DNA of 64,000 bases. It comes from Arcobacter roscoffensis (GTDB lineage: Bacteria > Campylobacterota > Campylobacteria > Campylobacterales > Arcobacteraceae). The DNA is taken from contig NZ_CP100595.1 of assembly GCF_024267655.1 (NCBI RefSeq), forward strand, positions 806,001 through 870,000, read 5' to 3'. The position numbers and the translations under genes are program-made. Shown one piece after another: positions 15,042 through 22,257 of the stretch (position 1 is its first letter; every line of letters begins with the position of its first letter). The notes under the pieces are model-generated. The model was not told the DNA's origin and ran no database searches. It was given only the letters and a program-made list of their open reading frames with translations.

Positions 15042-15932
15042 ATGAGTTTTTTAAAGAAAGAGTTTGAGCTATTTGTTTTAATCACTCTTTCTTTAATATT
15101 TTTAAGTCTAAACTCTATTTTATGTAAAATCGCTTTAGTAAATGAGTATATAGATGCTTACTCATTTACTTTCTTTAGAGTCTTTTTTGCTTTTTTGACC
15201 CTACTTATTTTAATCACATTAAGAGAAAGTAAAAAAGAATCTAAACTAAAGAAAATAAGTTTAAAAGGTAATTGGCTTAGTTCTTTTATGCTTTTTATAT
15301 ATGCAATTGGCTTTTCTTACTCTTATTTAAACTTAGAAGCAGGTTTTGGGACACTATTACTATTTACAGCAGTTCAATTAACAATGCTTATTACTTCACT
15401 ATTTTATAAAGAAAAAATCAATATAAATAAATTTATTGGAATCATATTAGCTTTTATTGGTCTATCATACTTACTATATCCTAGTAAGGATTTTGATATT
15501 TCATATTTTCATTTAACTTTGATGGTTATTTCAGGAATTGCATGGGGAATTTATTCTGTTATTGGTAAGAGCTCAAAAGATGCTTTATTTAATACTTATG
15601 ATAACTTCTTTAAAGCTTTGATATTTACAGTGATATTTTTTGTATTTGTTTTATTTAATACCCTTCAAATTAGTGTTAATGGAATTTTATTAAGCTTTTT
15701 ATCTGGAAGTATCACCTCTGCTATAGGCTATGTTATTTGGTATAAAGTCTTGCCAAATATTAAAATAGTTACGGCAAGTATTTTACAGTTACTTGTTCCT
15801 GTTATTGCTATTATTTTAAGTGTTGTTTTTTTAGGAGAGATATTTACCATGAAACTTTTAATAGCAACATTACTTGTATCAGTTGCTGTATTAATTTCAG
15901 TAATAAAAAAAGAGTCTAATCAAAATACTTAA
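15042..15932 (+). CDS. EamA/DMT-family transporter
   Basis: A 296-residue inner-membrane protein with about ten predicted helices in two EamA repeats (roughly 10-145 and 155-290). WGIYSVIGKSSK opens the second repeat, and SAIGYVIWYKVLPNIKIVTASILQLLVPVIA is characteristic of the family. It begins 4 bases after the outer-membrane channel gene, so it is probably the last gene of the efflux operon. The last 105 bases and the region beyond are duplicated, with divergence, at 17600-17820. Confidence 0.9.
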   Translation: MSFLKKEFELFVLITLSLIFLSLNSILCKIALVNEYIDAYSFTFFRVFFAFLTLLILITLRESKKESKLKKISLKGNWLSSFMLFIYAIGFSYSYLNLEAGFGTLLLFTAVQLTMLITSLFYKEKININKFIGIILAFIGLSYLLYPSKDFDISYFHLTLMVISGIAWGIYSVIGKSSKDALFNTYDNFFKALIFTVIFFVFVLFNTLQISVNGILLSFLSGSITSAIGYVIWYKVLPNIKIVTASILQLLVPVIAIILSVVFLGEIFTMKLLIATLLVSVAVLISVIKKESNQNT

Positions 15933-16028
15933 AGTCTTTGTCTTCACTACCATCTTTTTTTCTATTTTTAAATTTCCACATAGTTTTAAAATATTTAAAA
16001 GACTGATAAGAAACATAGCTATATAAAA
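15826..16028 (+). repeat. Upstream copy of a diverged direct repeat (DMT-gene 3' end plus broken small gene)
   Basis: About 200 bases nearly the same as 17600-17820. It covers the last codons of the intact DMT gene and continues through a reverse-strand copy of the 50-residue membrane protein gene found intact at 17689-17841. Relative to that copy, about 19 bases are missing between TTTCTTAT and CAGTCTTTT (near 16003), which shifts the frame, so the small gene here is broken. Base changes throughout show the duplication is not recent. Confidence 0.85.
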
Positions 16029-17544: not shown

Positions 17545-17599
17545 TTATATTTATATCTTTTAGTCATTAAGTTTTAGTTTAGAAAGAATTATGCTTAAC

Positions 17600-17705
17600 T
17601 TTTTTAGAAGAAGTATTTACAATGAAACTTTTAATTGCAACATTACTTGTCTCAGTTGCTGTATTTATTTCTGTAATAAAAAAAGAGTCTAATCAAAATA
17701 CTTAA
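17600..17705 (+). pseudogene. 3' tail of a second DMT transporter gene
   Basis: Reads FLEEVFTMKLLIATLLVSV, continues to SVIKKESNQNT and TAA, nearly identical to the end of the intact DMT protein (FLGEIFTMKLLIATLLVSV). Nothing upstream encodes the rest, so it is a truncated remnant created by the duplication or by import of a homologous segment. Confidence 0.85.
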
Positions 17706-17820
17706 AGTCTTTGTCTTCACTTCCATCTTTTTTTCTATTTTTAAATTTCCACATAGTTTTAAAATATTTAAAAGATTGATATGAAAGAACTAAAGCTATA
17801 AGAAACATAGCTATATAAAA
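17600..17820 (+). repeat. Downstream copy of the diverged direct repeat
   Basis: Second copy of the segment at 15826-16028, with roughly 90% identity by eye. It keeps the bases lost in the first copy and runs on into the intact small membrane-protein genes. The repeat pair brackets the IS remnant, the paralogous membrane proteins and the truncated fragment (16.03-17.6 kb). Confidence 0.85.
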
Positions 17821-17841
17821 TATTATAAAAATTAACTCCAT
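17689..17841 (-). CDS. 50-residue single-helix membrane protein
   Basis: A short gene: MELIFIIFYIAMFLIALVLS begins one membrane helix, followed by a basic segment (FKYFKTMWKFKNRKK) and an acidic end (EDKDFKYFD). GGAGTATA provides a ribosome site. It starts 10 bases after the 89-residue gene on the same strand, and its coding strand runs against the DMT tail, overlapping it. A frame-broken copy exists at 15.9-16.0 kb. Preservation of this copy and decay of the other support it being a real gene. The shape (helix plus charged tail) recalls CcoQ-like or other small accessory subunits, but I cannot assign it. Confidence 0.6.
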   Translation of the reverse strand: MELIFIIFYIAMFLIALVLSYQSFKYFKTMWKFKNRKKDGSEDKDFKYFD

Positions 17842-18186: not shown

Positions 18187-18243
18187 TGTCAACAAAATGT
18201 CAAGAGATATTACATTTTAAAATTGACAATTGTTATATATAAT
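18187..18243 (+). promoter_or_regulatory. Box A: direct-repeat operator plus promoter
   Basis: TGTCAA (18187-18192), 5 bases, TGTCAA (18198-18203), 19 bases, TTGACA (18223-18228), 9 bases, TATAAT (18238-18243). The two TGTCAA repeats are 11 bp apart, one helical turn, as in OmpR-family binding sites. TTGACA is the inverted half-site; a 9-base gap is far too short for a -35/-10 pair. Boxes B and C have identical spacing. Read on the other strand, the repeats face the 89-residue gene. Confidence 0.7.
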
Positions 18244-18418
18244 TTCGTACAATCACTACTAGCATATGCTTATTAAAAGTAGCAGTGCAGTTTTCAACAT
18301 TATAATCGTGATTAGAAAATATTCTCCAATATTTTTAAGATGAGATAGATTAGGATTTTTTAGTAAAAAGATAGTCATTTCCATGTCAAAAAAATTGACT
18401 ATTAAAATTCTTTTTACA

Positions 18419-18427
18419 CCCCCCCCC
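18419..18427 (+). repeat. C9 homopolymer tract upstream of nhaA
   Basis: Nine consecutive C residues in otherwise AT-rich intergenic DNA, 221 bases before the nhaA start and between boxes A and B. In Campylobacterota, tracts of this kind often vary in length by slippage. Here it is not in a recognisable reading frame. Confidence 0.8.
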
Positions 18428-18545
18428 TAACAAATTAACAGTTTATTTAACTAGAACTAAAGAATACTACTTATCTCATCTTCTTTACAAAATATTTTTT
18501 ATAAAACCCTTCTATAAAAGTCACATAGTATCTTTTACAATTATT

Positions 18546-18602
18546 GTCAAGAAATTGTCAATAAATAATGTGTAAGTATCTTGACATTTAATCAGTATAA
18601 TT
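18546..18602 (+). promoter_or_regulatory. Box B: direct-repeat operator plus promoter for nhaA
   Basis: TGTCAA (18546-18551), 5 bases, TGTCAA (18557-18562), 19 bases, TTGACA (18582-18587), 9 bases, TATAAT (18597-18602). The spacing is identical to boxes A and C. The -10 is 45 bases before the nhaA ATG. Since the response regulator and kinase follow nhaA in the same direction, the system may control its own expression. Confidence 0.75.
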
Positions 18603-18647
18603 TGACACTTTACAAATAAATAGTTAAAAATTTTACTAGGAGTTTAA

Positions 18648-19988
18648 ATGAAACTATACGCACCTTGGGAAAAGGCTTTTAAAAAAGTATCAACACCTTT
18701 TGAAGAGTTCTTACATGCCCAAACAACAACAGGTTTGATTTTGATAATAATGACAGTTTTGGCATTAGTATTAGCAAACAGTCCTTTATATGAAACATAT
18801 GCACACTTTTTTCATACATATATTGATTTTAATGTAGGTTCATGGGAACTTTCTCATTCTTTACATCATTGGATAAATGATGGTCTTATGGCAATTTTCT
18901 TTTTTCTAATTGGATTAGAAATAAAAAGAGAAATAACAGCAGGAGAATTATCTAACTTAAAAGTAGCAATGCTTCCTATTTTAGCCGCTATTGGTGGTAT
19001 GGTTTTCCCTGCACTTATTTATATAAGCTTAAACTATGGAACAGAAGGTGCTGCTGGTTGGGGTATTCCTATGGCAACAGATATTGCTTTTGCAATTAGT
19101 GCTTTAGTTTTATTAGGAAAAAGAGTTCCAACTGCACTTGTAACATTTTTAGTTGCACTTGCAATTGTAGATGATTTAGGTGCTGTATTAGTTATAGCAA
19201 TATTCTATACTGAAACTATAAATATGTTTGCATTAAGTGCAGCTGGTGTGATGTTTGCTGTTATGATTACTTTTAATAGATTTGGTATTCATATGATTTT
19301 ACCATATTTTGTAGTTGGTTTATTTATGTGGTTCTTTATGCTTGAATCAGGTGTTCATGCAACTATTGCAGGTGTATTAGCAGCCTTAGCAATACCATCA
19401 ACTCCCAAAAGAGCACCAGAGACATTAACACAGGATACAAAACATTTATTAGATGAATATGATAAATATCCTATACAAGAAAATCATATGATGCATGAAG
19501 AACAAAAGAAGATTTTAACAAATATTCAAGATAAAATCGATCAAGTTGGAACACCAGCTGCTAGATTAGAACGAAATCTTCATTTACCTGTTGCACTATT
19601 AATTATCCCAATCTTTGCTTTAGCAAATGCAGGGGTTAAAATCGATTTTAGCTCTATTGGATCAACAATAGTTGAACCTGTTTCTTTAGGAATTATTGCT
19701 GGACTTATTTTAGGAAAAGTTATCGGAATTTTTGGAGTTTCATGGCTAGCAGTAAAATTAAAAATTGCTCAACTTCCAAAAGATAGTAATATGAGTCAAG
19801 TATTTGGTGTAGCGTTTTTAGGTGGTATTGGATTTACTATGTCTATTTTTGTTGCAGATTTAGCCTTTGTTGGAAATCCAGAGCTTATTTTCCAAGCTAA
19901 GATAGGAATTTTGAGTGCTTCTTTATTTTCAGGTTTATTTGGATATTTTTGGTTAAAATCAGTATCAAAGAAAAAACAAACATCATAA
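18648..19988 (+). CDS. nhaA: Na+/H+ antiporter NhaA
   Basis: Electrogenic antiporter of the inner membrane for sodium and pH homeostasis. It has 446 residues with about twelve helices. Key residues: D145 in MATDIAFAISALVLLG and the ion-binding pair D175-D176 in LAIVDDLGAV. An insertion of about 55 residues rich in Lys/Glu/His (about 255-310, including HLLDEYDKYPIQENHMMHEE) makes it longer than E. coli NhaA (388). RBS AGGAG is 6 bases before the ATG. Two promoters with direct-repeat boxes lie upstream, and a two-component system starts 25 bases downstream. Confidence 0.95.
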   Translation: MKLYAPWEKAFKKVSTPFEEFLHAQTTTGLILIIMTVLALVLANSPLYETYAHFFHTYIDFNVGSWELSHSLHHWINDGLMAIFFFLIGLEIKREITAGELSNLKVAMLPILAAIGGMVFPALIYISLNYGTEGAAGWGIPMATDIAFAISALVLLGKRVPTALVTFLVALAIVDDLGAVLVIAIFYTETINMFALSAAGVMFAVMITFNRFGIHMILPYFVVGLFMWFFMLESGVHATIAGVLAALAIPSTPKRAPETLTQDTKHLLDEYDKYPIQENHMMHEEQKKILTNIQDKIDQVGTPAARLERNLHLPVALLIIPIFALANAGVKIDFSSIGSTIVEPVSLGIIAGLILGKVIGIFGVSWLAVKLKIAQLPKDSNMSQVFGVAFLGGIGFTMSIFVADLAFVGNPELIFQAKIGILSASLFSGLFGYFWLKSVSKKKQTS

Positions 19989-20012
19989 GATGTAAGAAAA
20001 TAAGGCTAAAAA

Positions 20013-20693
20013 GTGAAAAATAAAAATGTTCTATTGATTGAAGATAATATTGAACTACAAGAACTTATAAGTAATTTTTTAAAAGACTATAACTATTCAT
20101 GTAGTGTTTATTCTCAACCTTTAGAAGCATTAGAGGAATTTGAAGCAAATCACTTCAAATACTCTATTGTTATTTTAGATTTAGGTCTTCCACGAATGGA
20201 TGGCTTTGATCTTTTTAAAAAGTTAAAAGAGATAAAAAATATTCCTATTATTATATCAACAGCAAGGGATGATATAGGAAATAAAATTTATGGTTTTGAA
20301 CTTGGAGCTGATGATTATCTCTCAAAACCTTATGCGCCAAGAGAATTAGTTTTAAGAATTGATGCTACACTTAAACGATATAATGATAGCGATGAAATTC
20401 AAATAAATGATTTATTAATTGATTTAAATAAAAAAAGAGTTTTTTTAGAAGATCATCAAATTGAGTTTACTAAAATAGAATCAGAAATTTTCTTCATGTT
20501 TATTGATAATCTAAATAAAGTTATATCAAGAGAAGATATTGTAAATCAAACTTCGTTAAAAGATGATACAAAAAACAGAACTATTGACATGCATGTAAGT
20601 AATATAAGATTTAAGATAAATGATGACTCAAAAGAAGCAAGATATATCAAATCAGTTTGGGGAATAGGGTACAAGTTTTGTGATAACAATTAG
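20013..20693 (+). CDS. OmpR-family response regulator
   Basis: 226 residues starting with GTG after TAAGG. The receiver domain (1-120) has acidic residues E10-D11, phospho-acceptor D56 in IVILDLGLPRMDGFD, and the conserved T/K (ISTARDD, YLSKPYAPREL). A winged-helix DNA-binding domain follows (about 130-226, ending MHVSNIRFKINDDSKEARY and IKSVWGIGYKF). It follows nhaA and overlaps the kinase start by 14 bases. The repeated TGTCAA boxes at nhaA and after the kinase gene are good candidates for its binding sites. Confidence 0.93.
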   Translation: MKNKNVLLIEDNIELQELISNFLKDYNYSCSVYSQPLEALEEFEANHFKYSIVILDLGLPRMDGFDLFKKLKEIKNIPIIISTARDDIGNKIYGFELGADDYLSKPYAPRELVLRIDATLKRYNDSDEIQINDLLIDLNKKRVFLEDHQIEFTKIESEIFFMFIDNLNKVISREDIVNQTSLKDDTKNRTIDMHVSNIRFKINDDSKEARYIKSVWGIGYKFCDNN

Positions 20694-22065
20694 ACAAAGA
20701 CTTTTTATATCTTTTTCACTTATTTTACTTATTATTTTATCCATAATTGGAGTATTTTTTTACACTATTTTTAATCTAAGTGAGATTCATAAAAGTCAAA
20801 CTCATAGGTATGATCAAATAAGACGAGTTGAAAAATTAAAAGAGTTTAATAACTCTTTTTCTTGGATTGTTTTAGATATTGTAACTGACTATGAAAAAAT
20901 GGATGTAGTAAAAAAGCGTCTAAGTAAATCTAATGAACTTTTTAAAACCTTAGTGTTGAAAAAAAAACAGATTATTCAAAACTCTGAATCTCTAAGTGAA
21001 AAGAAAAATTTAGAGTTAATATTTAAGTATTTTCAAAAAATTGAGAGATTAATTAGATATGAGCTTTATGAGTTGGTACTTATAAGTAAAAATGAGAAAA
21101 GTTTCCACTTATTTAATAAAAAATTTGATAACTCAAGTTCTAAAATAACTAAACTTTTAGATGAAGAAATAATGTATCTTCAGTCCCAACTTGATAAAAC
21201 TGAGCAAAGTAGAAATCAGTTTATTGACACAATAAAAGTTGAATTAGTAATACTATTTTTTATAGCTTTTCTTTTATCTTTTATTATTTCTTCTAGAATT
21301 ACTAAAAAAATCAAAGACAAACTAGATAAATTAAATAAAGGTGTTTTACAGCTTTTTAAAGATGACGAAAATACCATAAAAGTTGATATTGGTAAAAACA
21401 ATGAGTTAACTGAAATAACATATAATCTAAATTCATATCTTGAAAAACAAAGGGATATTATCCACTCAAGAGAAGAACTTTTAAGAAATATAAGTCATGA
21501 ATTAAAAACACCTATTTCAAAAGCAAAATTTTTACTTGAAAATTTAAAACAGAGTAAAAATGACAAAGAAATTGATAGTTTAAATAGTGTAATTATTGAT
21601 ATTGAAGAGCTTACAAATAAGCTTTTACAAAGAGAGAAACTTAATTTTGCAAAGGTAAATCCTTCTAAGTTTAAAACAAGTACTTTAATTCTTGAGTCAT
21701 TATCGAAACTTTCAATTGATGATGAGTCTAAAATAGAACTTGATATAACAGATGATTTCTATATTCATGCAGATAAGTATTATTTGACAATCGCACTAAA
21801 AAACTTGATAGATAATGCAATGAAATATGCAGATGAATATCCTATTAAAATTGAAGTAAATGAAAATAAAATTGAAGTTAAAAATATTGCAAATAAACTT
21901 TCAAGTGACCTTATATATTATACTCAGCCATTTACAAGAGAACCAAATCAACAAGTAGGTCATGGCTTAGGATTAAATATAGTAAATAAGATTATCCAGA
22001 TGCATGACTTTAAACTTGAATATAACTATAGTAAACCATATAACATCTTTTCAATTGTATTTTAA
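20680..22065 (+). CDS. Membrane sensor histidine kinase
   Basis: 461 residues starting with GTG inside the end of the regulator gene. TM1 at about 9-30, a helical periplasmic sensor of about 155 residues, TM2 at about 186-205, then a HAMP-like linker. H273 lies in the phospho-acceptor motif NISHELKTPISKAKF, followed by the N box NLIDNAMKYA and the G box GHGLGLNIVNKI. The layout recalls the ArsS-type kinases of Campylobacterota. The signal is unknown; linkage to nhaA suggests salt, pH or envelope stress. Confidence 0.92.
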   Translation: MITIRQRLFISFSLILLIILSIIGVFFYTIFNLSEIHKSQTHRYDQIRRVEKLKEFNNSFSWIVLDIVTDYEKMDVVKKRLSKSNELFKTLVLKKKQIIQNSESLSEKKNLELIFKYFQKIERLIRYELYELVLISKNEKSFHLFNKKFDNSSSKITKLLDEEIMYLQSQLDKTEQSRNQFIDTIKVELVILFFIAFLLSFIISSRITKKIKDKLDKLNKGVLQLFKDDENTIKVDIGKNNELTEITYNLNSYLEKQRDIIHSREELLRNISHELKTPISKAKFLLENLKQSKNDKEIDSLNSVIIDIEELTNKLLQREKLNFAKVNPSKFKTSTLILESLSKLSIDDESKIELDITDDFYIHADKYYLTIALKNLIDNAMKYADEYPIKIEVNENKIEVKNIANKLSSDLIYYTQPFTREPNQQVGHGLGLNIVNKIIQMHDFKLEYNYSKPYNIFSIVF

Positions 22066-22080
22066 AATACAAAATAAATA

Positions 22081-22137
22081 TGTCAAGAAAGTGTAAAGAA
22101 AAACTACGTTTAGAAATTGACAATTATCTATTACAAT
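22081..22137 (+). promoter_or_regulatory. Box C: direct-repeat operator plus promoter for a 25-residue peptide
   Basis: TGTCAA (22081-22086), 5 bases, TGTAAA (22092-22097), 19 bases, TTGACA (22117-22122), 9 bases, TACAAT (22132-22137). Same geometry as boxes A and B, with one base changed in the second repeat and one in the -10. It lies 16 bases after the kinase stop and 43 bases before the small gene. Confidence 0.7.
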
Positions 22138-22179: not shown

Positions 22180-22257
22180 ATGACTTTCTTAAGAAACTTA
22201 ATTATTTTAGTAGTTGTATCTTTCGCAGCTATTGGTTTTATAAGTACTAGCTTATAA
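22180..22257 (+). CDS. 25-residue hydrophobic peptide downstream of the two-component system
   Basis: A very short frame: MTFLRNLIILVVVSFAAIGF and five further residues, a single membrane helix with one basic residue near the start. AAAGGA sits 7-8 bases before the ATG, box C gives it its own promoter, and a strong terminator follows at 22292-22324, so the unit is a complete monocistronic gene. It may act on the kinase, on NhaA or on the membrane generally. No homologue recognised. Confidence 0.6.
   Translation: MTFLRNLIILVVVSFAAIGFISTSL

Follow-up and report, generated by a model that had tools for sequence, protein, structure and literature searches.

Three composite sites around nhaA and a two-component system

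We analyzed a 64,000-nucleotide stretch of the Arcobacter roscoffensis genome (RefSeq assembly GCF_024267655.1, contig NZ_CP100595.1, positions 806,001 to 870,000), hereafter the window, in which three copies of one composite site lie around an antiporter gene, nhaA, and the genes of a two-component system. Positions are those of the window. The gene nhaA (18648..19988, + strand) encodes a Na+/H+ antiporter of 446 amino acids (aa), assigned above the curated cutoffs (PF06965, 501.8 bits vs 23.5; TIGR00773, 416.9 vs 254). It is followed by the gene of a response regulator (20013..20693, + strand, 226 aa), the proposed binder of the sites, whose receiver (PF00072, 86.2 bits) and C-terminal winged-helix domain (PF00486, 61.3 bits) place it in the OmpR/PhoB family, and by the gene of a sensor histidine kinase (20680..22065, + strand, 461 aa; PF00512, PF02518). 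The three genes are tightly packed on one strand. Behind them, a small open reading frame (ORF) at 22180..22257 on the + strand, with an AAAGGA resembling a ribosome-binding site (RBS), encodes a predicted single-pass membrane peptide of 25 aa, MTFLRNLIILVVVSFAAIGFISTSL.

More specific names for the two regulatory proteins were rejected. The nearest NCBIfam model to the kinase is the ArsS family (NF038389), but the score of 171.1 lies below the curated cutoff of 250. The regulator is not assigned to PhoB either, given a TIGR02154 score of 139.7 against a cutoff of 296.2 and targets that comprise antiporters and a peptide and no phosphate genes. In the AlphaFold2 model of the kinase (pLDDT mostly above 84 up to about residue 200; pTM 0.43 for the whole chain), the periplasmic domain is predicted to be all-helical. 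Among the PDB matches listed, the model matched kinase cores only, which gave no hint of a ligand for the sensor domain.

The composite site has the layout TGTMAA-N5-TGTMAA-N19-TTGACA-N9-TAYAAT, which matches exactly three times in the window, on the + strand and with 0 mismatches; the mean count in 100 dinucleotide shuffles of the window is 0. In site 1 (18187-18243), putative tandem half-sites, TGTCAA-N5-TGTCAA (18187..18203), are followed by TTGACA (18223..18228), an element of the promoter spacer that is most likely an inverted half-site and whose TTKACA type is kept in 63 related sites, and by a -10 element, TATAAT (18238..18243). Site 2 (18545..18601, + strand) consists of the direct repeat, TTGACA, and TATAAT, with the nhaA start codon 46 nucleotides (nt) downstream. 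Site 3 (22081..22137, + strand) reads TGTCAA-N5-TGTAAA, TTGACA, and TACAAT. The first-pass annotation, made from the sequence of this region, had reported three copies of one layout, and all three are there, at its positions 18187 and 22081 for the first and third, the second starting at 18545 instead of 18546. Its claim of identical spacing holds in all three copies (5, 19, and 9 bases), as does that of a single TGTAAA and a single TACAAT variant, both in the third copy.

With a weight matrix built from the sites of relatives only, the three of the window left out, sites 1, 2, and 3 score 58.3, 53.4, and 52.5 bits, and the runner-up position in the 64 kb scores -1.7. Scanned as the first-pass annotation had suggested, the whole genome (3,154,193 bases) yields only these three copies at up to three mismatches (0 for the reversed pattern as control), so that hits away from the locus, let alone many unrelated ones, did not occur. 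The bare repeat TGTMAA-N5-TGTMAA is found 16 times in the genome, vs 6 for the reversed pattern, and the full layout in the three sites of the locus only; a looser half-site/TTKACA pattern gives 14 matches in all, for the most part chance.

Site 1 has no equivalent upstream of nhaA in the closest relatives. Between it and nhaA we found neither an ORF that has an RBS nor a terminator-like site. Hence, site 1 is most likely a distal tandem promoter reading into nhaA, with a leader of about 400 nt. No homologue of the small ORF was found downstream of site 1 in three frames, and the folded stretch that follows the site (18250-18430) has a z of -2.32. This region holds other peculiarities. Between sites 1 and 2, a palindrome, TGTCAAAAAAATTGAC (18384-18399), presents the same half-sites head to head and is not a full site. 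A run of nine C (18419-18427), the only run of C or G of at least 7 in the window, also lies between both promoters upstream of nhaA, and its length could be variable; the A. butzleri genome paper lists 0 poly-GC tracts (PMC2147049). Farther upstream, the C terminus of an EamA-type transporter is partly tandem-duplicated (17589-17702 and 15919-16014; last 38 residues, 84% identical), and the same duplication takes in part of a 50-aa ORF at 17689-17841.

The sites follow the regulator across genomes

In a sample of 104 genomes of the family, an orthologue of the regulator (at least 312 bits, 63-100% identity) is carried by 29. Sites with at most two mismatches are present in 27 of these 29 genomes and in none of the 75 others, and the remaining two carriers, G033 and G093, have sites with three mismatches. 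The regulator is patchy within genera (2 of 31 genomes in g2, 9 of 16 in g9, 8 of 10 in g19) and the sites track it: their presence covaries with that of the regulator inside five genera (g2, g3, g9, g12, g18 or g19 among others). A draw of 398 genomes from the whole order, scanned with a slightly looser site pattern and with the kinase as marker, gave the same picture. The kinase occurs in 13 genomes, and sites at up to one mismatch in the same 13 and in 0 of the 385 others; 17 other genomes have matches with two mismatches. One of the 13 carriers, G271, lies outside the family, and its locus, L099, matches the contig of a Sulfurospirillum metagenome-assembled genome represented by L116/L119. 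A pair of matches outside the family (G129, G204) with no regulator or kinase nearby was set aside. A tree of 61 rows places these regulators in a single clade of 32 rows (100/100), the sister of a second group, RR2. The comparison strongly supports the assignment of the sites to the adjacent OmpR/PhoB-type regulator.

The targets of the sites in relatives point to the function of the regulon. In 19 of the 20 genomes having both NhaA-I and the regulator, a site lies directly upstream of the NhaA-I gene. By comparison, five NhaA-I genes (72-79% identity) from regulator-less genomes have no site, their best matrix scores being -11.8 to -25.9; the weakest real site, scored with a matrix that excludes it, reaches 33.8. 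In three genomes (G035, G066, G091) the site after the kinase precedes a second type of NhaA (NhaA-II, 43-45% identical to the NhaA of the window), followed in G066 by a PF00999 antiporter. In G058 and G066, two sites flank an orphan copy of the regulator, the second site leading into the peptide gene and then an Mrp operon (recognized by PF01899 and PF00361 for L068, and by likeness for L074), and in G271 a site reads into a gene assigned by likeness as MrpE-like. In G066, yet another site is followed by a peptide ORF of its own, and a PF13726/PF03553 antiporter gene starts 212 bp farther along that strand. Since the site precedes two NhaA types, Mrp operons, and a further antiporter behind a peptide gene, these patterns point to a regulon of sodium/proton (pH) homeostasis that also regulates itself. 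The first-pass annotation had proposed an autoregulated regulon of the adjacent regulator; this agrees with the way site presence follows the regulator, and falls short in extent, the regulon of relatives reaching to Mrp and other antiporters.

Other genes are found near sites as well. In G072 and G083 the small ORF has a CBS-domain gene downstream (L079:4386-5018, L080:11539-12162), an amino-acid permease gene lies some distance below one site in G058, and proteins without known identity follow some sites in G035, G066, and G071. In G058, NhaA-I is reduced to its last 63 residues before the regulator (L069:6109-6297).

Promoter anatomy and the TTGACA element

We aligned 63 sites, after dropping two overlapping mirror matches (L074:6805, L079:5147). 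Each repeat reads TGTMAA, with G or T next and AAA after that. In the spacer there is a C/T-C/A-T, whose T, a position on which the sites were not selected, is present in 63/63; it falls at -35 if the -10 element is taken to start at -12. As third element comes [AC]TTKACA, followed by the -10 element TATAAT. Sites 1 and 2 and most of the 63 have two head-to-tail half-sites with an 11-bp period, the TGTCA tracts being separated by 6 bp. Such a spacing in tandem half-sites is described for PhoB (PMC6194859, PMC4415409), and the likeness favors the first-pass proposal of an OmpR-family site for the 11-bp direct repeat, as a putative one.

What is the TTGACA element? It was rejected as a canonical sigma-70 -35 element, which would lie 16-18 nt before the -10 element; the spacing is 9 nt in all three sites. 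Read inverted, the third element becomes TGTMAA[GT], with the same variants as the repeats, and its seventh base is G or T in 61/63 sites, vs 56/63 and 60/63 in the repeats themselves. The 9-bp spacing, the shared variants, and the shared preference at the seventh base favor what the first-pass annotation had suggested, namely that TTGACA is an inverted half-site inside the promoter spacer and not a -35 element. We consider this most likely.

The sister group RR2 offers a comparison. In its operons (L102-L110, L128-L147), cytochrome genes come first, followed by the gene of the regulator and that of a kinase whose sensor part differs. The promoters before the cytochrome operon have the same direct repeat, with a gap of 18 or 17 instead of 19. 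In the 23 sites compared (near-duplicates L138 and L139 and five direct repeats at other places were left out), the place 9 bp before the -10 is occupied for the most part by TTTAAA, TTGATT, or TTGAAA, and by TTKACA in two. We read these third elements as degraded inverted half-sites. Hence, a good third half-site and a 19-bp gap would mark the promoters of the window's regulator.

The inverted half-site could serve repression: at high levels of phosphorylated regulator it would block the polymerase, making the output self-limited. At E. coli phoB, weak antisense PhoB half-sites near the -10 element mediate autorepression (PMC6194859), and the element of our sites has the same orientation and lies in the same region. 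This comparable placement makes a brake plausible; the half-site may also have a role in activation. RR2 promoters have the same geometry without a good half-site, so activation need not require one. On the other hand, the inverted half-site is kept in nearly all targets, and not in the autoregulated operon alone, and a single half-site is weak. We therefore regard repression as a serious candidate that is somewhat less probable than its alternatives taken together.

Alternatively, TTGACA could be a core-promoter element of this lineage's RNA polymerase, with the regulator on the upstream direct repeat only. RR2 promoters do keep [AC]TT-like elements, without the CA, exactly 9 bp before the -10 in 21 of 23 sites, and their TTTAAA resembles the "-35" TTTAAGTnTT of C. 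jejuni (PMC3824568). Yet among 198 generic promoter candidates from the fetched loci, a crude set that includes chance TAAAAT, none has TTGACA at -15 from the -10 start and one has TTKACA. Moreover, C41 in the third element is kept in 62/63 sites, the seventh base obeys the half-site rule, and the TTKACA variants mirror TGTMAA. Campylobacter sigma-70 promoters are described as having a periodic A/T-rich signal instead of a -35 box (PMC3656092), and TTGACA 9 bp from the -10 is therefore not a usual core element. A core-promoter role seems to us rather unlikely.

A conserved membrane peptide under site 3

The first-pass annotation correctly placed the third site after the kinase gene and overlooked its target, the conserved small ORF at 22180-22257, whose start codon lies 42 nt after the -10 element of site 3. 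Relatives encode at the same place a similar peptide of 25-27 residues, of the approximate form M-x-[FV]-[LV]-R-N-L-x-I-x-V-x-V-S-F-x-x-I-G-x-I-S-x-S-F. A profile of this peptide finds 26 intact copies in 24 of the 104 family genomes (E of 2.1e-8 or better), namely in 24 of the 29 genomes with the regulator and, at E<1e-7, in 0 of the 75 others. The profile was built from 23 site-linked peptides, whose recovery is thus by construction, and the informative part of the search is the absence elsewhere. Partial weaker matches in ten further genomes (E of 4.8e-4 to 0.1) look like chance. All 26 intact copies lie under a site, and in all 26 the start codon and RBS are 22-42 nt after the -10 element. 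G058 has an extra, frame-broken copy (L069:8619) under a second tandem site at a distance of 363 bp. Small ORFs of another type, 29 aa long and starting for example with MSIVDIVLFGFIG, lie under like sites away from the antiporter locus (L097:5491, L098:5269, L074:6686).

Among eleven sequences of 25 codons, the ratio of nonsynonymous to synonymous changes (pN/pS) is 0.34, with 379, 206, and 677 changes at the first, second, and third codon positions, which indicates that the peptide is under purifying selection. Could site 3 instead produce a small regulatory RNA, the 25-aa frame being incidental? The transcript unit is very short and the ORF is under the usual annotation size, as this would predict, but the pN/pS, the excess of changes at third over second codon positions, the start codon and RBS kept in all intact copies, and the profile matches in 24 genomes make it very improbable. 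A recent local duplication, or a repeat without regulatory meaning, is hardly credible as an account of the three copies: an upstream segment is indeed duplicated (the EamA C terminus, 17589-17702) and site 1 is missing in close relatives, but the three copies differ in sequence between the fixed elements, and 28 other family genomes retain these elements.

What might the peptide do? Searches of the 25-aa ORF against Pfam and NCBIfam, including the MgrB and KdpF families, gave no match at E<=0.001, a query of 25 aa having low power. The peptide gene follows the kinase even without an adjacent nhaA (G033, G094, G098), and is also found beside Mrp and another antiporter. It could thus act in feedback on the kinase or as a partner of antiporters; we lean slightly toward feedback on the kinase.

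Proposed mechanism

Taken together, the three sites are very probably operators and promoters by which the adjacent two-component system controls a sodium/proton homeostasis regulon. This proposal builds on features read from sequence (the sites and how they are conserved, the way they co-occur with the regulator, their targets, and the coding constraint on the peptide); to these it adds binding, activation, a signal, and a function for the peptide. The kinase would phosphorylate the response regulator, the best guess from the targets being that the signal is Na+ or alkaline pH. The regulator would then bind the tandem TGTCAAG half-sites, at about -63 to -47 from the expected start, a position that fits an upstream activator, and could activate a promoter with a good -10 element and no normal -35. 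The inverted TTGACA half-site in the spacer, 9 bp before the -10, may modulate the output. Site 2, with site 1 as distal tandem promoter, would drive nhaA and the genes of the regulator and kinase, producing antiporter and autoregulation. Site 3 would drive the 25-aa membrane peptide, which probably acts back on the kinase or the antiporters. More tentatively, and here we are doubtful, this could be a hitherto undescribed Campylobacterota sodium/pH regulon in which one two-component system enlists unrelated antiporter families by way of the composite operator, its tandem half-sites activating, and in which there are two negative feedbacks, one by the output-limiting inverted half-site and the other by the peptide acting on kinase or antiporter.

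Several observations weigh against assigning the sites to this regulator and its regulon. G093, with both NhaA-I and the regulator, lacks a site upstream of nhaA, and 5 of the 29 genomes with the regulator lack the peptide. Single matches with three mismatches occur in ten of the 75 regulator-less genomes, which looks like chance because the reversed pattern gives 7 matches over the 104 genomes. The aligned sites were gathered with the pattern, so that the pattern columns are conserved by construction. Finally, given the same direct repeat upstream of the cytochrome operon, cross-binding by RR2 or cross talk with the window's system is possible.

This sister pair (RR1/RR2), with its gap of 19 vs 18 and its differing third element, makes the specificity of the regulators directly testable. 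The regulon is compact and can be verified in the genome: its sites number three in 3 Mb, its signal class is predicted, and its promoter can be dissected base by base. It includes a conserved membrane peptide of 25-27 aa whose ORF is far under the usual annotation size. The connection with Mrp and other antiporters hints at a way in which Arcobacter-type bacteria may control their sodium and pH balance along salt gradients.

Comparison with known systems

NhaR, a LysR-type regulator, does not belong to a two-component system, and we know of no peptide co-regulated with it. Like the regulator proposed here, E. coli NhaR is dedicated to nhaA and associated with salt and high pH (PMC6307784). 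E. coli PhoB/PhoR shares with our locus an OmpR/PhoB-type regulator, tandem half-sites, and autoregulation (PMC4415409, PMC6194859), and the phoB promoter also has an extra opposite-strand half-site near the -10 (PMC6194859). Unlike in the PhoB system, the repeat is here 34 bp above the -10 element and the inverted half-site is fixed in almost every target. Within the Campylobacterota, the Sulfurospirillum PCE regulator is also of the OmpR family and binds direct repeats at or above the -35 in a small regulon, but its consensus, CTATW-N17-CTATW, is unlike our site (PMC7755780). ArsRS of H. pylori is pH-related, as proposed here, but serves acid acclimation (PMC9449129).

The peptide also has parallels. 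MgrB, a feedback peptide on PhoQ, is small, lies in the inner membrane, and is produced under the regulator controlled by that kinase (PMC2789325); it has 47 aa, vs 25-27 aa for the peptide here, which has no Pfam or NCBIfam match. KdpF is a membrane peptide of about 30 aa under KdpDE, a two-component system for an ion transporter (PMC3618439). Unlike KdpF, the peptide has here its own promoter copy after the kinase, and lies beside the kinase, Mrp, or another antiporter even without an adjacent nhaA. Our searches of the open-access PMC literature found no report of a two-component system for nhaA in Arcobacter-type bacteria. The parts are thus known in kind: an OmpR/PhoB-type system, NhaA, tandem repeats, and small membrane peptides. 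As far as these searches go, their combination is new: a composite operator fixed throughout a regulon of unrelated antiporters, together with the peptide family.

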